In this document: positions 28,689-39,125 of the stretch, one piece after another | How the letters are laid out: the number at the start of each line of letters is the position of its first letter | Position numbering within the stretch: position 1 is the stretch's first letter | Assembly (NCBI RefSeq): GCF_024171735.1 | Contig: NZ_JAMTCH010000003.1 | Coordinates: forward strand, 1,786,841-1,850,840 | Direction: 5' to 3' | DNA length: 64,000 nucleotides | Source: Prauserella alba | Lineage (GTDB): Bacteria; Actinomycetota; Actinomycetes; Mycobacteriales; Pseudonocardiaceae | Notes under the pieces: generated by a model | Databases searched by the model: none | Told to the model about the DNA's origin: nothing | What the model saw: the letters and a program-made list of their open reading frames with translations, nothing else | Position numbers and translations under genes: made by a program

Positions 28689-29237
28689 ATGGAGTGCGGG
28701 CGAGCACGATGGTGGCTACTGACGCTGCTCGCCCTGCCTGTCCTGTTCGGCGTGGTCGGTATGCACGCCCTCGTGACCACGCCCGCTCCACCGGCTGCAG
28801 CAACCCCCGCGATCGCGAACACCACCGCAGGCCACGACGTCTCGGACGACCGCGGTTCGGACCACAGCGTTTCAGGCCGCAGCGTTTCGGACGACAGCGT
28901 CGCGTTGCACAGCGTCAGGCTGCACGCCGGGCACGGGCCACGGGCGGAGTCTTCCCATGATGCTCGCCTCCAGCCAGGCACGGAGCCGCACGCCGGCGCC
29001 GCGTCACAGGGCGACACCGGGCCGCACGCCGATCACGACGGCCTGCACCAGCTGCTCCATCTGTGCCTCGCGATACTGGCCGCAGCCGGACTCGTCGTAC
29101 TGGCCGCCCCGTTGCTCACCCGGCTACGCCCGGCCACGGCAGCGAGGCGACCGCCGCAGCCGGGCGGCCGGCTGCCGGTGCAGCGACCGCCGCCGACGTC
29201 CCGGCGGCTCGCGCAGCTCTGTGTGATGCGGACCTGA
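28689..29237 (+). CDS. DUF6153-family small membrane protein
   Basis: About 182 aa. Short basic N-terminus, TM near residues 8-28 (WWLLTLLALPVLFGVVGMHAL), a His/Ser/Asp-rich extracytoplasmic segment (many GHD and H residues), second TM about 130-150 (LCLAILAAAGLVVLAAPLL), and the family ending PPPTSRRLAQLCVMRT. This layout matches DUF6153 proteins of actinomycetes, often next to a DUF305 gene, as here (70 bp). ATG 28689 has AAGGTGG. Function unknown; the His-rich loop suggests metal binding, perhaps copper, as inference. Confidence 0.72.
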   Translation: MECGRARWWLLTLLALPVLFGVVGMHALVTTPAPPAAATPAIANTTAGHDVSDDRGSDHSVSGRSVSDDSVALHSVRLHAGHGPRAESSHDARLQPGTEPHAGAASQGDTGPHADHDGLHQLLHLCLAILAAAGLVVLAAPLLTRLRPATAARRPPQPGGRLPVQRPPPTSRRLAQLCVMRT

Positions 29238-29307
29238 TCGGCACCACGGCGCACAACGCGCCGGAGCCCGATCGATCGCACCTCATCACACAGGAGTCCA
29301 CACCACC

Positions 29308-29961
29308 ATGAAGAGCACCAACGCGGCGGCCACCGCCGCGGCACTGACCGCTGCCCTCGTCCTGACCGGCTGCGCCGGTCAGGACACCTCCGGCGGCACG
29401 CCGACCTCCACACCGGCAGTCTCGACCACATCGGAGCCGGCCACATCGGAGTCAGGCACGCCGAAGCCGGCCACGTCGGAGCCGGGCATGCGGGCATCGG
29501 CCGAGCACAACGACGCCGACATCGCTTTCGCCCAGGGCATGATCCCGCACCACCGGCAGGCGATCGAGATGTCGGAACTGGCCGACGACCGTGCGGGCAG
29601 CCCGGAGCTGCGCCGGCTCGCGGCGAGGATCGAACGCGCACAGGCCCCTGAGATCGCCACCCTGCGCGGATTCCTCTCGTCGTGGGATGCGCCGGAATCC
29701 GCCACGGACCACGGTGCCGGCGAGCACAGCGGCATGTCCGGCATGATGACCGACGAGCAGCTCCGGCGGCTCGAACGGTCCGACGGGACCACGTTCGATC
29801 GCCTGTTCCTGGACATGATGATCGACCACCACGAGGGAGCGCTCCGGATGGCCCGGGACCAGCTCGCGAACGGGACCAGCCCGGAAGCGACGGAACTGGC
29901 CAGGGAGATCATCGACACCCAGCGAGCCGAGATCACCGAGATGCGCGGCCTGCTCGAGTAG
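29308..29961 (+). CDS. DUF305-family lipoprotein
   Basis: 217 aa. Signal peptide with lipobox LTGC (Cys22) and a Thr/Ser/Pro-rich linker with a repeated PATSE motif, then the DUF305 four-helix domain with two hallmark pairs: GMIPHHRQAIEM and MMIDHHEGALRM, plus Met-rich SGMSGMMTDEQ. DUF305 proteins are often copper-linked, and the paired HH and Met clusters fit metal handling at the cell surface. Downstream of the DUF6153 gene in one probable operon. CAGGAG precedes the ATG. Confidence 0.9.
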   Translation: MKSTNAAATAAALTAALVLTGCAGQDTSGGTPTSTPAVSTTSEPATSESGTPKPATSEPGMRASAEHNDADIAFAQGMIPHHRQAIEMSELADDRAGSPELRRLAARIERAQAPEIATLRGFLSSWDAPESATDHGAGEHSGMSGMMTDEQLRRLERSDGTTFDRLFLDMMIDHHEGALRMARDQLANGTSPEATELAREIIDTQRAEITEMRGLLE

Positions 29962-30071
29962 CCGGCCACGGCGGCGGGATTCCCGCGGCGCCGCTGGTGC
30001 GCCGTTCACCTGACACGGCGACGGTCCGAGACGGTCCGAGACGGTCCGCCGTCCCCGGCGTCCCGCCCGGG

Positions 30072-30126
30072 CGCCCCGAGCAGTGCGCACGTTGCGCCGC
30101 CGACCGGCCGCGCACTGCTCGGGGCG
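30072..30126. terminator. Perfect 17-bp stem-loop between convergent genes
   Basis: Arms at 30072-30088 and 30110-30126 are exact reverse complements (core GCAGTGCGC / GCGCACTGC) with a 21-nt loop. It lies between the DUF305 gene and the convergent Cache gene, so a bidirectional terminator is plausible. No T run follows on either side, so it would be a non-canonical terminator, or an inverted repeat of another kind. Confidence 0.5.
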
Positions 30127-30190
30127 GCGCATTGCCCGGGGCCGCGTACCGCCCGGGGCCGCGTACTGCCCGGGGCCGACTATTGCCCGA
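30117..30190. repeat. 17-bp tandem repeat
   Basis: Unit GCCCGGGGCCGCGTACY: copies at 30134-30150, 30151-30167 (differing in one base) and 30168-30184 (3' part diverged), with a degenerate copy at 30117-30133 that overlaps the hairpin arm and a partial one after 30185. A 10-bp unit GACGGTCCGA is also repeated three times at about 30020-30048. The repeats end before the 3' end of the Cache gene. Confidence 0.7.
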
Positions 30191-30215
30191 CGCGGCGCCG
30201 GTTCGGATCACGCCG

Positions 30216-30929
30216 TCACCGCGGAGTTCCGACAAGCCGCCAGCTCACGTGCCCGCCGACGTCGACCGCGTCCGACCATCCGTCCCCCGGGGCCCGCTGC
30301 AGCAGGGTTCCGCTCCACCAGCGGGCGCTGGTCGAGGCCACGACCCGATCGTGCTCGTTGACGAGGACCGTGTCCTGCGGGGCCGAGCGCAACGATTCGA
30401 TCAGCAGTCGTTCGACACCCTCGACCGCCACGTCGGCACCCAGCACGTCGACGTACCCGTCGGCGTGCGCCACCGGCACGGCCAGCGTGATGGTGTGTTC
30501 GTTGGTCCCGCCGAAGTCCACGAACGGGCCCGTGACGGTCGCCCTTCGGTTCGCGCGCGGCAACGCGAACCACTCCTTGCCCACGTAGTCGTAGAAGTGG
30601 TTGTGCTCCGGGTCGAGGTTGTGGCGGACGAACTCGGCCGGTTCGCCGCCCTCACTGCGCCACCACTCCATCCAACGTGGCGAGTCGGCGAGATGCCCGT
30701 CGTCGAGGGCGAGCCCCACGCCCTGCACGAAGTCCCGGTGCCGGTCGATCACCGCCAGCAGCGCCGGCTGTACGGGCGCCAGGTCGGCGCGGCGCAGCGG
30801 CCGTTCCGCCGGCGCGAGCGTCCGCACCAGGTCACCGGCCGTGGCGCCGAGGTCGGCCAGTACGCGGTCGATTCGTTCCCTGATGCGGTCCGCGGGACGG
30901 CGCAGCGACGCCAGGTCTGCCTCGTTCAC
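30216..30929 (-). CDS. Stand-alone Cache-domain protein
   Basis: 237 aa with no signal peptide or membrane segment seen. Residues about 50-230 look like a single Cache sensor module: RHRDFVQGVGLALDD, WMEWWRSEGGEPAEF, and FYDYVGKEWFALPRANRRATVTGPFVDFGGTNEHTITLAVPV. Extracellular sensor domains of receptors have this layout, but here the domain is free and apparently cytoplasmic. It follows a FadR-type regulator by 31 bp on the same strand and is divergent from an oxidase and EutH transporter. It may act as ligand-sensing partner of the regulator; hypothesis only. GTG start with GAAGG. Confidence 0.72.
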   Translation of the reverse strand: MNEADLASLRRPADRIRERIDRVLADLGATAGDLVRTLAPAERPLRRADLAPVQPALLAVIDRHRDFVQGVGLALDDGHLADSPRWMEWWRSEGGEPAEFVRHNLDPEHNHFYDYVGKEWFALPRANRRATVTGPFVDFGGTNEHTITLAVPVAHADGYVDVLGADVAVEGVERLLIESLRSAPQDTVLVNEHDRVVASTSARWWSGTLLQRAPGDGWSDAVDVGGHVSWRLVGTPR

Positions 30930-30960
30930 GATCCTTCACCTTCTCGCCTGCGCGTTGGCG

Positions 30961-31707
30961 TCATCCTGGTTCACCGCGCACCGCCAGGTCCAGGTGCAGA
31001 TCGAGCAGGTGCTGGACCCGGCCTTCGACGTTGCGCATCACCACGTCGCGCGCCGTGTCCGCGTCGGCACCGTCGACCGCGGAGATGAGTGCGGTGTGCG
31101 CGCTCTCCGTCACCGGATGATGGTCGGCCTCCCCGCCCACCATCCAGAACAGCGACGCCAACTCGTCGTGCAGATGGACGATGGCCTGCGTCAGCCGCGC
31201 CGAGTGGGCGATCACGCCGATCTCGATGTGGAAACGACTGTCCGCGCGGCGCCGCTCGTCCGCGGTCTCGGCGGTGCGGAACTGGTCGGCCAGCGACCGC
31301 AGGTGGTCCACGTCGTCCCCGACCGCACGCTGCGCCGCCAGGTGTGCCGCACCGCCGACCACGGCCGCGCACGCGTCACCGAGATCACGCAACGAATCGG
31401 CGCTGCGCTCGCGCAACCGGTTCATCACGGCCTCGGGTGGCGGTTGCGTGGCACTCCGCACGAAGCTGCCGCCGCCCCGGCCACGGCGGGTTTCGATCAC
31501 GCCGCGCTGACGCAGGGTCTCCAAAGCCTGACGGAGTGTTCCGGTGGAGATTCCCAGCTCGGCCGCGAGTTCGGACTCCGGCGGCAACCGGTCTCCGTGA
31601 CTGAGCAGCCCGACGGCGACGGCCGTCTCCAGTTGCCGGGCCACGTTCTGCGGGAGGCCCGGACCTTCGGTGGCGTCCAACCGCAGATACGCAGCAAAAC
31701 TCGACAC
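30961..31707 (-). CDS. FadR-type GntR-family regulator
   Basis: 248 aa. Winged HTH: LPPESELAAELGISTGTLRQALETLRQRGVIETRRGRGGGSFV. The C-terminal FCD ligand domain has ADSRFHIEIGVIAHSARL and ESAHTALISAVDGAD, with His residues positioned for metal-assisted acid binding. GTG start at 31707 with AGAGGAAAC. It precedes the Cache gene and is divergent from the oxidase/EutH pair by 506 bp; probably represses that pair until a substrate appears. A TTAAATTTAA palindrome at 31840-31849 in the gap is one possible site. Confidence 0.87.
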   Translation of the reverse strand: MSSFAAYLRLDATEGPGLPQNVARQLETAVAVGLLSHGDRLPPESELAAELGISTGTLRQALETLRQRGVIETRRGRGGGSFVRSATQPPPEAVMNRLRERSADSLRDLGDACAAVVGGAAHLAAQRAVGDDVDHLRSLADQFRTAETADERRRADSRFHIEIGVIAHSARLTQAIVHLHDELASLFWMVGGEADHHPVTESAHTALISAVDGADADTARDVVMRNVEGRVQHLLDLHLDLAVRGEPG

Positions 31708-32213
31708 CGTTGTGTTTCCTCTGCTCACGAAGCTAGTCCAGGCGGGTTCGACGTGCGGATGGGAACGAATCGCTCGCCTGTCACGGTACGGCACCGATCC
31801 GGCGACCCCCTGTCACCCGGCTTCACACCGACTTGTCATTTAAATTTAAGTGTTTTATGTTTCCTGCGCCGCCGTCCACTCGGGGCACCGCGGGCAGCGT
31901 TCACCGCCGAACCCGGCCCGCCGGTGCCGTCGACGAGCCTTCGGGGAGCAGGTCCCATGACGACGCAGTCGGGCCACCGGCGCACGCGGGCCGGCATCCG
32001 GTCCCGGAGCCTCCACAGGGCTCCACGGCGACCGTCCGGCACCCCGTCCCCGGACGCGGCATGCCGTGGTCAACGCGTCCTGATCGGTCCTGGATCTCCG
32101 GGGCCGATGCCGGCCCGCACCGCTCCACCCGTATTGCGCCGTCCGCGCGGGCGACGCGGAGACGCGGGCCGGGGCGCTGACCGAGATCCGCTGCACAAGA
32201 TCGGAGCATCCAC
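31708..32213. promoter_or_regulatory. Divergent control region with AT-rich promoter-like segment
   Basis: 506 bp gap without a convincing gene. An AT-rich island at 31833-31861 stands out in GC-rich sequence: TTGTCA (31833-31838), 17-bp spacer, TATGTT (31856-31861), a good sigma-70-like promoter facing the oxidase. The spacer contains the perfect palindrome TTAAATTTAA (31840-31849), placed for repression by the divergent FadR-type protein. The remaining 350 bp to the start codon would be a long leader; an 86-codon frame there is not credible. Confidence 0.5.
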
Positions 32214-33476
32214 ATGACCGAGCCATCGCTGTCCGCACCTGTCAGCTACGACCGGGTCTGGACCAACTGGGCGGGCAACCACACCGTCACAGCGTCGATG
32301 TACGCCCGGCCCCGGGACGAATCCGAGGTCGTCGACGCCGTCCGGTACGCGATCCGGCAGGGCATGAACGTGCGGGTCGCGGGAACCGGTCACTCGTTCA
32401 CGCCGATCGTGCCGACCGGCGGTCTCATGCTCGATCTGACCCAGCTCAGCGGCGTGACGTCGACGGACCCGCAGCGATTGCGAGCCTCGGCACTGGCGGG
32501 CACCACGGTGGGCAGGCTCGGCGAGCCGCTGTGGGACGCCGGGCTGTCGCTGTCCAACCAGGGCGACATCGACAAACAGGTCATCGCCGGTGCACTGGCG
32601 ACGGCCACGCACGGCTCCGGCATCGAACTGCCGAACATGTCGGCCGCCCTGCGTCGCGTGCGCCTGGTCGACGGGCACGGCGAGGTCGTCGAGATCGGTG
32701 AGGACCGGATGCGGGAGCTGCGGGCGGCACAGGTCGCGCTCGGCACGCTCGGCGTGATGCTCGAGGTGGAACTCGCGGTCTCCCCGAAGTACTACATCGC
32801 CGAGGAGATCAGCTACCGGCCCTGGCAGGAGATCGAGGAGTCCTGGGACGAGTTGATCGCGAACCACCGGCACTTCTCGTTCTTCTGGTGCCCCGCGGAC
32901 CACTCGGTGGACCTCTACCAACTCCCGGCACCTCCCGACCAGCCGATGCACAACCACTGCTACGTCAAGATCTACGACGAGGTCGAGGTCACCGAACCGG
33001 ACGGGCTCGTCTCCGACGACGTGGGCAACCGCACCGACCGTGCATACCGGGTCTACCCGGGCGGCTACGACGAGCCCTTCCACGAGATGGAGTACATGGT
33101 GCCCGCCGAACACGGCTTGGAGGCGCTCAACAAGATCCGGCGGTTGATGCTCGACGAGTTCCCCGACCAGCTCTATCCGATCGAGGTCCGCTGGACGGCT
33201 GCTGACGACGCGTACCTGTCGCCGAACTACCGGCGCGACACCATGGTGATCTCGGTGTCCGGCGCCCCCGGCACGGACTACTGGCCGTTCCTGCGCGCCG
33301 TCGACCGGCGATTGCAGCAGTACCAGGCCCGTCCGCACTGGGGCAAGATCCACTTCATGACGCGGGACCGGCTGGAGCAACTGTTCCCCGAGTTCGACAC
33401 GTTCGTCGCCGTGCGCAGGGAGTTCGACCCGGACGGCGTGTTCCTGAACGACCACCTGCGCCCGCTCCTGCGCTGA
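32214..33476 (+). CDS. D-arabinono/L-gulono-1,4-lactone oxidase-family flavoprotein
   Basis: 420 aa, FAD-linked oxidase of the VAO/PCMH fold. N-terminal FAD domain: NWAGN, VRVAGTGHSFTPI, SLSNQGDIDKQVIAGALATATHGSG. C-terminal ALO-type domain: FHEMEYMVPAEHG, PIEVRWTAADDAYLSPNYRRDT, and the family signature HWGKIH. It resembles mycobacterial L-gulono-1,4-lactone dehydrogenase more than alditol oxidase. ATG is supported by GGAGC. Transcribed with an EutH carrier 29 bp later, so the true substrate may be whatever that carrier imports rather than a sugar lactone. Confidence 0.82.
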   Translation: MTEPSLSAPVSYDRVWTNWAGNHTVTASMYARPRDESEVVDAVRYAIRQGMNVRVAGTGHSFTPIVPTGGLMLDLTQLSGVTSTDPQRLRASALAGTTVGRLGEPLWDAGLSLSNQGDIDKQVIAGALATATHGSGIELPNMSAALRRVRLVDGHGEVVEIGEDRMRELRAAQVALGTLGVMLEVELAVSPKYYIAEEISYRPWQEIEESWDELIANHRHFSFFWCPADHSVDLYQLPAPPDQPMHNHCYVKIYDEVEVTEPDGLVSDDVGNRTDRAYRVYPGGYDEPFHEMEYMVPAEHGLEALNKIRRLMLDEFPDQLYPIEVRWTAADDAYLSPNYRRDTMVISVSGAPGTDYWPFLRAVDRRLQQYQARPHWGKIHFMTRDRLEQLFPEFDTFVAVRREFDPDGVFLNDHLRPLLR

Positions 33477-33505
33477 CCCGTCCCCCACCGGAAGGAGGAG
33501 GACGC

Positions 33506-34732
33506 GTGGAGTCCTTCGGGAACCTGATCATCTACATCATGATGGTGTTCGTCGTCATCGGCGCCGTGGCGTCGATCCGCGACGACGAACACGGCCTCGG
33601 CAGGGAGTTCAAGGAAGGCCTGCACTCGATCGGCGCCATCTTCATCCCGGTCGCCGGGATCATGGCCGCCATCCCGTACCTGTCCGCCCTGGTCGAGTCC
33701 GTCGCCGGGCCGTTGTTCGACGCGATCGGCGCCGACCCGGCGATCGCCGCGACGAGCCTCATCGCCGTGGACATGGGCGGCTACCAACTGGCGCAGGAAA
33801 CCGCCACCAGCACCGGCGGCTGGATCATGGCGACCGTCGTCGGCTACATGGCCGGAGCCACCATCATCTTCACCATCCCCGTCGGCCTGGCCATGTTGCA
33901 CAAGCGGGATCACCGGTACATGGCGCTCGGCGTGATGTCGGGCGTCCTCGCGATTCCGATCGGCGTACTGGTCACCACGGCGATTCTCGCCGCGAGCTCG
34001 ACCACGGTACGCGGCGAGGTGTCGGCAGACAGCGCCTCCGACGCCGCACTGACCGGATTGGACGCCGGGGCCATCCTGCTGAACCTGCTGCCGCTCGCGG
34101 TGTTCGTCGTGGCACTCGCCGCGGCGCTGTGGTTCGCACCCACGTTCATGATCCGCCTGTTCATCTGGTTCGGGCGCATCCTCGACGCTGCGCTGAAACT
34201 CGTACTGGCGGTGAGCATCGTCGAACACTTCACCGGCGTGTTCTCCGCCGTGTTCGGCAGCTTCGGTTTCGACCCGATCATCGCCGACTCCGAGGACCAG
34301 TACCGGGCCCTCGAAGTGGCCGGCAACATCGGCATCATGCTGGCGGGCGCCTTCCCGATGGTCTACGTGCTGCGCAAGGGGCTCGCCCGGCCGCTGGGGG
34401 CGCTCGGCCGTCGCGTGGGAATGAGTTCGGAGGGCACGGCAGGACTGCTCGCCGCCGTGGCCAACGTGCTGGCCCTGTTCCGCCTGATCCGGGACATGCC
34501 GCCCAAGGACAAGGTGCTGTGCATCGCGTTCGCCGTCTGCGCCGCGTTCCTCGTGGGCGACCACCTGGCGTTCACGGCGAACTTCCAGCCGAACCTCATC
34601 CTGCCGCTGCTCGTCGGCAAGCTGGTCGGCGGCCTGCTCGCCATCGGGCTGGCTGTCGTCATCACGAAGCCGGCCGTGCGGGCGCTGGCCGCCGAGGAAG
34701 AGCAGGAGAGCACCCCCACCCCGGCAACGTAG
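33506..34732 (+). CDS. eutH: EutH-family ethanolamine transporter
   Basis: 408 aa, about eleven membrane segments. EutH features: MESFGNLIIYIMMVFVVIGAVASI, AVDMGGYQLAQETATS, AGNIGIMLAGAFPMVYVL, and a late FLVGDHLAFTANFQPNLILPLLVGKL. GTG start with AAGGAGGAGG. EutH moves uncharged ethanolamine into the cell. No ethanolamine ammonia-lyase, shell or aldehyde dehydrogenase genes are near, and the gene sits behind a flavin oxidase, so an alternative route for ethanolamine or another small amino-alcohol is possible. Family call firm; pathway is conjecture. Confidence 0.85.
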   Translation: MESFGNLIIYIMMVFVVIGAVASIRDDEHGLGREFKEGLHSIGAIFIPVAGIMAAIPYLSALVESVAGPLFDAIGADPAIAATSLIAVDMGGYQLAQETATSTGGWIMATVVGYMAGATIIFTIPVGLAMLHKRDHRYMALGVMSGVLAIPIGVLVTTAILAASSTTVRGEVSADSASDAALTGLDAGAILLNLLPLAVFVVALAAALWFAPTFMIRLFIWFGRILDAALKLVLAVSIVEHFTGVFSAVFGSFGFDPIIADSEDQYRALEVAGNIGIMLAGAFPMVYVLRKGLARPLGALGRRVGMSSEGTAGLLAAVANVLALFRLIRDMPPKDKVLCIAFAVCAAFLVGDHLAFTANFQPNLILPLLVGKLVGGLLAIGLAVVITKPAVRALAAEEEQESTPTPAT

Positions 34733-34755
34733 CCCAGGGCGCAGGCCGAGGGATT

Positions 34756-34807
34756 CGAGGCGGCCGGCGGCGAGGCGTGATCGACGTCCTCGCCGCCGGC
34801 CGCCTCG
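34756..34807 (+). terminator. Very stable stem-loop downstream of eutH
   Basis: Arms at 34756-34775 and 34788-34807 are 20 bp long and perfectly complementary, GC-rich (GGCGGCCGGCGGCGAGG core), with a 12-nt loop. It begins 24 bp after the eutH stop and lies before the bioB promoter, so it is most likely the transcription terminator, though no T run follows. Confidence 0.7.
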
Positions 34808-34871
34808 TCGGTTCGCGCCCCAGTGACAGCGCGAACCGCTCCGTTGACCACCCGGCGGCGGCCGGTTTAAC

Positions 34872-34901
34872 CTGAACAGCGTTCAGCTGAACACTGTTCA
34901 G
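34872..34901. promoter_or_regulatory. Two abutting BioQ-like operators upstream of bioB
   Basis: CTGAACAGCGTTCAG (34872-34886) is followed without spacing by CTGAACACTGTTCAG (34887-34901). Each is a palindrome of form TGAAC-N3-GTTCA, the pattern bound by the biotin repressor BioQ (TetR family) in mycobacteria and corynebacteria. The site is 34 bp before the bioB start codon. No bioQ gene lies in the window. Confidence 0.8.
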
Positions 34902-34934
34902 GTCAGTGACCCGCCAGTCGATACCGGAGACGCG

Positions 34935-36008
34935 ATGAGCGACACGTTCCAGCAGCTTGCCGACGCGATCCTGGCCGGCACGCCGGCCACACCAGACGAC
35001 GCGCTGGGGGCATTGCGCGCCGACGACCCCGAGCTGATGCACCTGGTCGCCGCCGCGGGACGGCTCCGCCGCGCCCACTTCGGCAACACGGTGAAGGTGA
35101 ACTACCTCGTCAACCTGAAGTCCGGCCTGTGCCCCGAGAACTGCAACTACTGCTCGCAGGCGCTGGGGTCCGGCGCTCCGATCCTGACGTACTCGTGGTT
35201 GTCCAAGGAAGACACCTTGGCCCAGGCGGATGCGGGACTGCGCGGCGGTGCGAGCCGGGTCTGCCTGGTCGCGTCCGGCCGCGGACCGTCCACACGGGAC
35301 GTGGACAAGGTCACCGACATGGTCGAGTCCCTGAAGACGGAGTATCCGGACGTCGAGGTCTGTGCGTGCCTGGGGCTGCTCGGCGACGGGCAGGCCGAGA
35401 AACTCAAGGCCGCCGGAGTCGACGCCTACAACCACAACATCAACACCGCCGAGAGCAACCACGCCAACATCGTCCAGACCCACACCTACGACGACCGCGT
35501 CGACACCGTGCAGAAGGCGAAGAACGCGGGGATCTCCCCCTGCTCCGGGCTGATCGCAGGACTCGGAGAGTCCGACGAGCAGCTGGTCGAGGCGCTGTTC
35601 GCGCTCCGCGACCTCGGCTCCGACTCGATCCCGGTGAACTTCCTGATGCCCTTCGAGGGCACACCCCACGAGAACACCTGGGACCTCTCCCCCACCCGTT
35701 GCGTGAAGATCCTCGCGGCCGCGCGCCTCGTCTGCCCCGACAAGGAGGTGCGCATCGCCGGCGGGCGGGAGATGCATCTGCGGTCGCTGCAGCCGATCGC
35801 ACTGCACGTCGCCAACTCCCTGTTCCTGGGCGACTATCTGACCTCCGAGGGCCAGGACGCCCGGGCCGACCTGGACATGATCCGCGACAACGGGTTCGTC
35901 GTCCTGGGCTCCGAACAGGACCTTCGCGGCCGGGACGCGGAGCAGGAACCGGCCGACCCCGCGATCCGCCGCCGCGGTGCGGGCACCGACGTCCTCCCCA
36001 ACGCATGA
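34935..36008 (+). CDS. bioB: Biotin synthase
   Basis: Radical-SAM enzyme of 357 aa inserting sulfur into dethiobiotin. The [4Fe-4S] motif is [10 protein letters not shown]; further family blocks are [33 protein letters not shown] and [14 protein letters not shown]; the auxiliary cluster residues sit in VCLVA and ACLG segments and Arg in [12 protein letters not shown]. Start ATG has GGAGAC. First gene of bioBAFD, under the twin BioQ-like operators. The C-terminal 20 aa are a loose acidic-basic tail. Full-length and intact. Confidence 0.97.
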
Positions 36009-37270
36009 CGGGTCCGGCCGAGCAGGTGCTCGCCTTCGACCGTGAGCACCTGTGGCACCCGTACACGTCGATGACCGACCCGGCGCCCGTGCGACTGGTG
36101 ACGGGTGCGGAGGGCAGCCGGATCACCCTCGACGACGTCGGCGACGTGGTCGACGGGATGGCGTCCTGGTGGTCGGCCATCCACGGATACCGGAACCCCG
36201 TGCTCGACGAGGCCGCACGCCGCCAGCTCGACAACGTGTCGCACGTGATGTTCGGCGGACTGACCCACGAGCCCGCGGTCGAACTCGCCCGTCGCCTCGT
36301 CGACCGTGCACCCGGCGATCTCGACCGGGTGTTCCTCGCCGACTCCGGGTCGGTGAGCATCGAGGTGGCCATGAAGATGGCGCTGCAGTACCAACGCGGC
36401 CGAGGGAGGCCGCAGCGCTCCCGCTTCCTGACCGTCCGCGGTGGTTACCACGGCGACACCTTCGACTGTATGAGCGTGTGCGACCCGACCGGCGGCATGC
36501 ACTCGATGTGGTCGGGGCTGCTGCCGCAGCAGGTGTTCGGCGAGCGGCCTCCCCCGCTCGGTGGCGACGTCGATGCCTGGGCCGAGGGGTTCCGCGCACT
36601 CGCGGCACAGCATCGGGACCAGCTCGCGGGCCTGATCGTGGAACCGCTCCTGCAGGGCGCCGGAGGCATGCACCCCTATCCTGCCGAGTGCCTGGCGGTC
36701 TTTCGCGACGTGGCCGACGAACACGGCCTGGTGCTCGTCTTCGACGAGATCGCCACCGGCTTCGGCCGCACCGGTACGTTCTTCGCGGCCGACGCGGCCG
36801 GCGTGGCCCCCGACGTGATGTGCGTCGGGAAAGCACTCACCGGCGGGTACCTGTCCCTTGCGGCGACGCTGTGCACGGCGGACATCGCGCGTGGCCTCTC
36901 CGCGAGCGATTCCGGGGTGCTCATGCACGGCCCCACGTTCATGGGCAATCCGCTGGCGTGCGCGATCGCCTCCGCGAGCCTGGACCTGTTGTCCGAACGC
37001 GACTGGACCGTCGATGTGGGGCGGATCAACGCCGGGTTGCAGGCCCTGCACGGGATCGACTGCGTCGACGTGCGTGTTCTCGGCGCGGTCGGTGTGGTCC
37101 AGCTCGACCACGACGTCGACGTACCCGCCGCAACCGAGGCGGCACTCGCCCAGGGCGTGTGGCTGCGTCCGTTCCGCGACCTGATCTACACGATGCCGCC
37201 CTACGTGTGCACCGACGACGACATCGCGACCATCTGTGCCGGGATCGCGGCCGCGGCGGAGGTGGCATGA
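36005..37270 (+). CDS. bioA: Adenosylmethionine-8-amino-7-oxononanoate aminotransferase
   Basis: PLP aminotransferase of 421 aa forming 7,8-diaminopelargonate from KAPA with SAM as amino donor. Evidence: [15 protein letters not shown] (BioA signature), [53 protein letters not shown] and the PLP lysine in [19 protein letters not shown] overlaps the bioB stop by 4 nt (ATGA), and its own stop overlaps bioF. Intact. Confidence 0.96.
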
Positions 37271-38400
37271 CCGCGTGGGCAGGCTGGCTGGCCGAGCAGC
37301 GGGCGGCGCGCGAGGCCGCGGGATTGCAACGCGGTTTGCGGCCCCGGCAGGCCGGCGACGAGACCATCGACCTCGCCAGCAACGACTACCTGGGGCTGAG
37401 CAACCACCCCGACGTGTGCCGGGCCGCCACCGACGCCGTCCTCACCTGGGGGACCGGCGCGGGTGCCTCCCGCCTCGTCACCGGCACGACCACCCTGCAC
37501 ACCGACCTGGAACGGGAGCTGAGCGCGTTCATCGGACAGGAAGCGGGACTGGCCTGTTCGACGGGATACCACGCCAACCTGTCCGCGGTGACGGCGTTGA
37601 CGGACCGGAACTCGCTGATCGTCTCGGACGAACACGTCCACGCGTCACTGATCGACGCGGCACGTCTGTCGAAGGCGGCGGTCACGGTCACTGCACACAA
37701 CGATATCGCCGCGGTCCGCGACGCGCTGGCGGACGCGGGCGGACGGCGAGCCGTGGTGCTGACCGAGTCGGTCTTCTCGGTACTGGGCGATGCCGCACCA
37801 CTGCCCGATCTGGTCGACGTGTGCACGGCGGCAGGTGCACTCCTCGTCGTCGACGAGGCGCACGGGCTCGGTGTGGTCGGTGAGGACGGATGCGGGGCGG
37901 TCCGTGCCGGCGGCCTGGCCGCCCACCCGAACGTGGTCGTGACCGCGACGCTGTCCAAATCGCTCGGTGCCATGGGCGGCGCCGTGCTCGGCTCCGCGGA
38001 GCTCGTCGACCACCTCGTCAACCGCGCCCGCCCGTTCATCTTCGACACCGGTCTCGCCCCGGCGCCGACGGCCGCGGCGCTGGCCGCTCTGCGGCTGTTG
38101 CGCGAACGGCGGATCGGACCGGCGCGGATTCACCGGCGCGGCGCCGAACTGGCCGAACGGCTCGGCGTGCCGTGCTCTGCCGGTGCCGTGCTGTCGGTTC
38201 CGATGCCGTCCCCGCAGGCCGCCCTCGCGGCGCAGGCCCACGCCCTCGACGCCGGAGTGCGCGTGGGCTGTTTCCGCCCGCCGTCGGTGCCGGACGGCGT
38301 CTCCCGACTGCGGATCACCACCCACATCGGACTCGACGACGAGCGCTGGGCCCATGCCCTCGACGTCCTGACCACCGCGGTCCAACGGTGCCGAACGTGA
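37267..38400 (+). CDS. bioF: 8-amino-7-oxononanoate synthase
   Basis: 377 aa PLP-dependent alpha-oxoamine synthase that joins pimeloyl-CoA/ACP and L-alanine. Motifs: [51 protein letters not shown], and the PLP Lys in [19 protein letters not shown] coupled to bioA by a 4-nt overlap. C-terminal domain ends [15 protein letters not shown]. Pimelate-forming genes (bioC/H or bioI) are not in the window. Confidence 0.95.
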
Positions 38401-39107
38401 TCACCGTCGTCACCGGGACCGACACGGGCGTCGGCAAGACGGTCGCCACCTCGGCACTCGCGGTCTGTTCCGGCCCCGGAACGATCGTCGTCAAGCCCGC
38501 GCAGACGGGAGCCGGCACCGACGAACCGGACTGTTCCGTGGTGGGGCGCCTCTCGGCCTGTCCCACCACGGAGTTCGTGCGGCTCGACGACCCGCTCGCG
38601 CCCGGCACCGCGGCGCGGCTGCGTGGTGCCGACATCCCGGCGGTCCACACGCACGCCGCGCGCATTCGTGACCTGGCAACGCGGCACACTTCGGTGATCG
38701 TCGAGGGCAGCGGCGGGCTTCTCGTCCACCTCGACACCCGCGGGGGCACGCTGGCGGACCTCGCGACGGATCTGGCGCGGGATCACGACGTGCGGGTGCT
38801 GGTGGTGACGCGCATCGCCCTGGGCACGCTGAACCACACCGGACTCACGGTCGAGGCGCTCCGCAGGCGGGGCATCGAACCGGCGGGCCTCGTGCTCGGC
38901 GCCGTTCCGGAACGCCCCGGGCTCGCCGAGCGGTGCAACCTGGCCGATCTGCCCCGGATCACCGGGATACCGATCGTCGCCGCGCTTCCGGAGGGTGCCG
39001 GCGCGCTCGATCCCGAACGATTCCGGGCCCGCGCCGACTCCTGGTTCGCCGCATCGCCCGGACACGACGGGGCCGAAGAATCGCGGCCGGGGGCCACGAA
39101 TCCGTGA
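38397..39107 (+). CDS. bioD: Dethiobiotin synthetase
   Basis: 236 aa ATP-dependent carboxylase closing the ureido ring. Starts with the P-loop VTGTDTGVGKTVATSALAV; later VVKPAQTGAG, VEGSGGLLVHLD and VVTRIALGTLNHTGLTVEAL. GTG start overlapping the bioF stop (GTGA). Last gene of bioBAFD, so all four steps from KAPA formation to biotin are in one coupled operon. Confidence 0.95.
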   Translation: MITVVTGTDTGVGKTVATSALAVCSGPGTIVVKPAQTGAGTDEPDCSVVGRLSACPTTEFVRLDDPLAPGTAARLRGADIPAVHTHAARIRDLATRHTSVIVEGSGGLLVHLDTRGGTLADLATDLARDHDVRVLVVTRIALGTLNHTGLTVEALRRRGIEPAGLVLGAVPERPGLAERCNLADLPRITGIPIVAALPEGAGALDPERFRARADSWFAASPGHDGAEESRPGATNP

Positions 39108-39125
39108 CCCCCGGTTCACCGCGGC

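Follow-up and report, generated by a model that had tools for sequence, protein, structure and literature searches.

Ethanolamine is a membrane-derived source of carbon and nitrogen. Choline oxidase or dehydrogenase, together with betaine aldehyde dehydrogenase, takes an amino alcohol through the aminoaldehyde to the amino acid. For ethanolamine itself, the portion of a review available to us gives a B12-dependent lyase within a microcompartment, gamma-glutamylation and conversion to glycolaldehyde as catabolic routes (PMC9397018), and a preprint, likewise available in part, describes amine-type dCache proteins that stand alone and share a two-gene operon with a transcription factor, an arrangement reported from many genomes of actinobacteria (PMC10104139). 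Here we describe a locus of Prauserella alba at positions 30216-34732 of a stretch of 64,000 nucleotides (contig NZ_JAMTCH010000003.1, positions 1,786,841 to 1,850,840; hereafter, the window), which lies wholly inside one contig of a 5.6 Mb genome that is 99.93% complete. Four genes are confirmed there, encoding EutH, an ALO-family flavin oxidase, a GntR/FCD regulator and a soluble Cache protein, and the features of this cassette are as follows.

30216..30929, minus strand: stand-alone soluble dCache sensor protein, predicted to be of amine type, 237 aa (Pfam MCP-like_PDC_1, AlphaFold model, structural matches)
30961..31707, minus strand: GntR/FCD (FadR-type) regulator (Pfam GntR and FCD; the open frame extends to 31794)
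31833..31861, plus strand: sigma-70-like promoter TTGTCA-17-TATGTT of the oxidase-EutH operon (motif scan, aligned relatives)
32214..33476, plus strand: ALO-family FAD-linked oxidase (Pfam ALO and FAD_binding_4, TIGR01679, PDB alignments)
33506..34732, plus strand: EutH ethanolamine-transporter family protein (Pfam EutH, NF011668, tree, hydropathy)

The gene-level facts are firm. The oxidase and EutH genes, 29 bp apart, form a short rightward operon, and the regulator and Cache genes, 31 bp apart with the Cache gene second, a short leftward one, the two diverging from about 31.7-32.2 kb; a preliminary description of this DNA had noted the divergent layout. The likelier start of the regulator is the GTG at 31707, because similarity to relatives falls off upstream of it. 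The Cache protein, regulator and oxidase have no 19-residue hydrophobic segment scoring above 1.6 and are therefore all expected to be cytosolic; EutH has many such segments. The statement in the same description that the locus has neither ethanolamine ammonia-lyase nor a microcompartment agrees with our searches: EutB was not found in the whole genome, neither EutB nor EutC matched in the window, 16 Escherichia coli Eut proteins (EutH left out) gave no tblastn match to the window at E up to 1e-3, and E. coli EutS, EutM, EutN, EutL and EutK were unmatched both in the window and in cassette loci L020-L030 of related genomes.

Compared with the eut operon of E. coli, Salmonella and Listeria, the cassette thus has the EutH transporter family in common but lacks EutBC and shell proteins, has another regulator and carries an oxidase in place of the lyase. 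It would resemble the choline oxidase/dehydrogenase route if the alcohol is oxidized, but those enzymes belong to the unrelated GMC family and the cassette has no aldehyde dehydrogenase. Gamma-glutamylation through GlnA4 in Streptomyces coelicolor is, according to the available part of the review, also actinobacterial and independent of ammonia-lyase, and ends at glycine (PMC9397018), whereas the cassette contains no glutamine-synthetase-like enzyme. The regulatory half is closest to the operons of a dCache_1AM protein and a transcription factor, in which the same soluble intracellular amine-type dCache stands beside a GntR-family regulator, but the available part of that preprint ties these pairs to neither EutH nor an ALO oxidase and describes no loss of the FCD metal site (PMC10104139). 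Our working hypothesis, to which we attach a moderate probability, is that the cassette works as a module for the use of ethanolamine or a closely related 2-amino alcohol, one that responds to amines and needs neither B12 nor a compartment. Its basis is comparative, namely the gene families, the operon layout, the pairing of oxidase and EutH in two clades, the pairing of Cache protein and regulator, the predicted Cache fold and a conserved promoter-like block.

EutH is present in 14 of 200 genomes of the family of P. alba (Pseudonocardiaceae) and is adjoined by the oxidase in 12 of these, P. alba included; the other two have no oxidase within 1.5 kb. A further locus of the family, L038, has EutH without the oxidase. 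Loci were compared over a set of 80 fetched EutH loci, the flanks being compared over the fetched stretches. Eleven Pseudonocardiaceae loci in this set carry the oxidase-EutH pair, and eight of them also the regulator and Cache genes; of the remaining three, L025 ends at a contig end, and L028 and L030 have oxidase and EutH only, with a divergent frame in L028 that, on a reading of its sequence alone, resembles an XRE-cupin regulator. The four-gene block recurs in other genera. The pair also occurs in five alphaproteobacterial loci, from Leisingera (L081), Paracoccus kondratievae (L093), Pseudogemmobacter (L096), Paracoccus denitrificans (L102) and Paracoccus yeei (L103), where an SDR gene precedes an oxidase of 43-45% identity directly upstream of EutH and the Leisingera locus additionally has a LuxR-type regulator. 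The preliminary description had allowed that co-occurrence might not be conserved; adjacency in 12 of the 14 EutH-bearing Pseudonocardiaceae genomes and in these five loci shows otherwise, and we regard the oxidase-EutH linkage, as judged from compared loci, as strong.

In trees of 30 oxidases and 82 EutH proteins (P. yeei in the oxidase tree only), the paired proteins fall in two separate clades in both; the starred branches require at least two changes, a single change sufficing in 0% of 200 bootstrap trees. On the simplest reading of these clades, EutH was joined to such an oxidase on two or more occasions, so that the pair probably arose at least twice. The alphaproteobacterial oxidases have their closest relatives in Sinorhizobium enzymes encoded after an SDR gene, with EutH absent from the stretches seen. 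Outside the cassette, L025 and L027 have no protein matches to the window flanks, those of L023 and L026 reach just 32-39% identity, and a merely coincidental neighbourhood was rejected on the strength of these flanks and of the two clades. Four loci of close Prauserella relatives (L020, L021, L022 and L024), whose EutH is 94-96% identical to that of the window, share parts of its flanks, and L029 has a single downstream gene in common with it (71%), which is also downstream in L020-L022; since these five loci share flank genes, the position of the cassette may be partly inherited, which speaks against a clean island. More widely, a search at E up to 1e-85 met the oxidase in three of 394 Actinomycetes genomes including that of P. 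alba, the third (G585; L110, L184) having an oxidase of 48% identity and giving no match to EutH over the 18 kb covered. Further alphaproteobacterial pairs could not be counted in 198 Paracoccus-family genomes, because only the centre genome matched EutH strongly, alongside three weak matches (E 4e-4 to 9e-4).

The Cache protein scores 27.2 bits with Pfam MCP-like_PDC_1, barely above the cut-off of 27, yet its AlphaFold model (pLDDT 91.7) aligns over its full length with double-Cache (dCache) domains; the single Cache domain of the preliminary description thus gives way to a predicted dCache fold over the entire protein, and its suggestion of a cytoplasmic ligand sensor gains support, as one of amine type, from the model, the structural matches and the lack of a hydrophobic segment. 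Amine-binding dCache domains rank first among the structural matches, closely followed by amino-acid receptors. The AM motif comprises R103/D133, W155, F188, M215, S217 and D235 in PctD numbering, and Trp120, Phe121 and Asp166, placed by alignment to PctA/PctC (not PctD), suit its aromatic and Asp positions. In our reading of the profile register, the invariant Asp166 corresponds to the acidic platform residue Asp198 of the ethanolamine receptor CqsR (9nia; PMC12410723), which shares the dCache fold but has it as the periplasmic part of a histidine kinase, unlike the soluble protein described here. From the model and its structural matches we suggest that the protein is an amine sensor. A Fisher test bearing on this reading set 39 case loci (39 of 53 matches) against 35 control stretches of the same genomes; it ignores kinship and returns too small a p.

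The regulator contains both the GntR winged helix and the FCD domain. Three histidines bind an effector-side metal in FCD domains, according to the available part of a study of this family (PMC7674646). The third is Asn in the window regulator, and Asn or Asp in all six cassette copies compared. All three are intact in each of the three E. coli reference proteins and, among the other FCD proteins encoded by P. alba, in 25 of 28; of the 45 Cache-paired regulators, just 17 keep them and the other 28 have a damaged site (Fisher p = 1.1e-5, or 1.0e-4 with the cassette copies reduced to one; kinship is ignored, which inflates the contrast and makes these values too small). The controls were chosen by the Pfam FCD model and the paired set by similarity to two Cache-paired regulators, a difference that may favour intact controls. 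Judged from these alignments, loss of the site fits a transfer of effector sensing to the Cache partner, and in the available parts of the literature on FCD domains and dCache pairs we met no description of such a loss.

TTGTCA-17-TATGTT is the sole promoter-like match in the divergent region (0.1 expected in shuffles) and is directed toward the oxidase. The block TTGTCATTTAA is unchanged in 9/9 aligned loci, the second hexamer being TATGTT in seven and TAGGTT in two, unlike much of the remaining intergenic region, which drifts among the same loci; the AT-rich spacer of this conserved promoter-like block may hold a putative operator site. Rfam gave no matches at gathering thresholds over 29000-36000, and no riboswitch or known RNA was found in the leader. 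The predicted oxidase leader measures about 350 nt (window 31862-32213), but L023 and L202 have a shorter intergenic region.

The oxidase matches TIGR01679 (bacterial FAD-linked oxidoreductase) with 339 bits against a cut-off of 292. In PDB alignments its Gly117 falls where the GLDH variant A113G has its glycine, a position which we take to be the oxygen gate. With the AldO-type alditol oxidases (2vfr, 8ot8) it shares the ALO family, the flavin-linking His60 and active-site residues Glu324, Arg326 and Lys378, found in the alignments and in a residue survey of the window oxidase, 24 relatives and AldO. It differs from them in gene context, in Asp118 for the flavin-N5 Ser and in Glu291 for Gln and Ser347 for His, by which the rest of the alditol pocket, taken from the AldO homologue 8ot8 (available part of PMC10771423), is not kept. 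Asp118 was considered as an amine-binding change and dropped: it is found in the distant paralogue of the same genome and in 23 of 24 relatives, and is thus a family feature.

That oxidation takes place at the alcohol carbon is a guess based on the family: AldO, the best PDB match, oxidizes C-OH (PMC10771423, available part). An attack on the C-N bond, giving glycolaldehyde, NH3 and H2O2 from ethanolamine and then glycolate or glyoxylate, is in our estimation unlikely, being set against this activity of AldO and against the retention of Lys378, one of the two AldO side chains holding the reacting C1-O1, of which the His is lost. Some observations lean its way. The conversion of ethanolamine to glycolaldehyde has a precedent in Mycobacterium (available part of PMC9397018). 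A 54% oxidase relative on an Arthrobacter plasmid follows genes of agmatinase type, NCS1-type permease and aminobutyraldehyde-dehydrogenase-type aldehyde dehydrogenase, a layout that also suits a putrescine-type amine oxidase. An ethanolamine oxidase of the C-N-attacking type reportedly occurs in Arthrobacter, according to older work. On the Paenarthrobacter plasmid pYJN5-2, a 55% relative stands after an FCD regulator, a Cache protein and an aminobutyraldehyde-dehydrogenase-type gene and before an amino-acid-type permease; both plasmid contexts fit an aminoaldehyde product, the Arthrobacter one also an amine oxidase. Other relatives, such as L184 and L201, stand in contexts with no evident amine link.

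EutH is a membrane protein of its family (Pfam EutH E 1.6e-122; 612 bits with NCBIfam NF011668, whose cut-off is 575), and ethanolamine transport may be expected of it from sequence. Its presence here is unusual in itself, because most actinobacteria and proteobacteria rely on the unrelated eat transporter (review PMC9397018, available part). A neighbour survey covered 81 loci (the 80 fetched and L102) at E 1e-15, each given one class in the fixed order oxidase, EutB, shell, dimethylglycine-dehydrogenase-like (DMGDH-like), glutamine-synthetase-like, kinase-like, none. Fifteen loci fell to the oxidase, 38 to EutB, five to shell proteins with no EutB in the stretch, 13 to a DMGDH-like flavoprotein, one each to the glutamine-synthetase-like and kinase-like classes, and eight to none; in a Pfam scan of ten EutH neighbours, the domains present included choline-kinase-like, nucleotidyltransferase and glutamine-synthetase ones.

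These neighbours bear on whether EutH might carry, in place of ethanolamine, another amine close to it as the substrate, for example serinol, choline or N-methyl- or N,N-dimethylethanolamine. Related EutH proteins do lie beside choline-kinase-like, nucleotidyltransferase and DMGDH-like genes, certain dCache_1AM domains bind choline and methylamines (PMC10104139, available part), and four EutH-bearing relatives carry EutB too; the largest neighbour class is still the ethanolamine ammonia-lyase, with 38 of 81 loci, and we consider such a substrate improbable. Ethanolamine or a close 2-amino alcohol is most likely. That EutH is a bystander to a sugar-lactone or alditol oxidase, as the family name and the Glu324, Arg326 and Lys378 shared with AldO might suggest, is highly improbable: oxidase and EutH adjoin in two phyla and their paired forms make two clades in each tree, Glu291 and Ser347 stand in place of the AldO pocket Gln and His, and an amine-type sensor is predicted on the opposite strand.

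Several points weigh against the amine-responsive module proposed above. The cassette contains no aldehyde dehydrogenase, and the rest of the P. alba genome was not searched for one; none of the surveyed oxidase active-site marks is unique to the EutH-linked enzymes, and the substrate cannot be read from any residue pattern; 4 of the 14 EutH-bearing genomes also have EutB at another place; and loss of the FCD metal site is by itself no proof of a partner, because FadR also lacks that site (PMC7674646, available part). For this module we infer the substrate, the oxidation site, the sensor ligand, the sensor-regulator contact and the direction of control as follows. EutH would import ethanolamine or a close 2-amino alcohol, which the cytosolic ALO-family flavoenzyme would oxidize with O2. 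The attack would fall most probably on the alcohol carbon and yield H2O2 and an aminoaldehyde, which for ethanolamine is 2-aminoacetaldehyde; an aldehyde dehydrogenase encoded elsewhere in the genome would complete the route to glycine. The soluble dCache protein would bind the amine and signal to the GntR/FCD regulator which, with its own effector site degraded, would control the divergent oxidase-EutH promoter.

The preliminary description knew of no account of such a system. This no longer stands for the sensor-regulator pair, a kind already reported in the available part of PMC10104139. Our literature search, made by titles and the beginnings of abstracts in a corpus leaving most subscription journals uncovered, met no paper joining EutH to an ALO oxidase; a search on bacterial flavin ethanolamine oxidases found nothing, and one on EutH with lactone oxidases gave, among the matches listed, no bacterial ethanolamine-locus study by title. 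We propose, tentatively and at less than even confidence, that EutH and the ALO oxidase form an undescribed oxidase pathway for ethanolamine (2-amino alcohols) that does not depend on B12, arose at least twice, in different phyla, and is provided in actinobacteria with a split sensor-regulator made from a repurposed cytoplasmic dCache protein and a FadR-type regulator with a decayed pocket. If so, importer and oxidase would make up, with only two genes, a simpler aerobic route for ethanolamine, and a function would be assigned to a clade of ALO oxidases that lacks one. It would also supply an assayable case of the intracellular pair of amine-type dCache and transcription factor, reported without a binding test in the available part of the preprint (PMC10104139).

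Among other EutH loci, the Bacillus-type EutH (L047, with the same open reading frame clusters in L055 and partly in L060) adjoins a single protein that carries both nucleotidyltransferase and choline-kinase domains; this suggests that choline or ethanolamine is imported there to make phospho-head-groups and not for catabolism. In L071 (4503-9221) and related Hyphomicrobiales loci, genes for a choline-kinase-like protein and a DMGDH-like flavoprotein precede EutH, perhaps a route for methylated ethanolamines. The P. yeei locus (L103:6280-10457) looks decayed: its SDR gene is in two pieces with an annotated IS5 transposase between them, and EutH matches as two separate pieces.

More distant oxidase relatives in L194 and L195 lie beside a flavin-dependent (LLM) oxidoreductase, L194 also having a flavin reductase and an aldehyde dehydrogenase, possibly an amine-xenobiotic pathway. 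In L104 and L105, relatives of 47-48% identity have Gln for Glu324 and Lys for His133 and cluster with proline-racemase, mandelate-racemase and dihydrodipicolinate-synthase family genes, reminiscent of hydroxyproline catabolism. A biotin synthesis cluster with no counterpart in L020 and L021 between the cassette and the next common gene starts 3' of EutH (window 34935-39119); its biotin synthase is supported by domains, and the frames that follow resemble BioA, BioF and BioD when their sequences are read.
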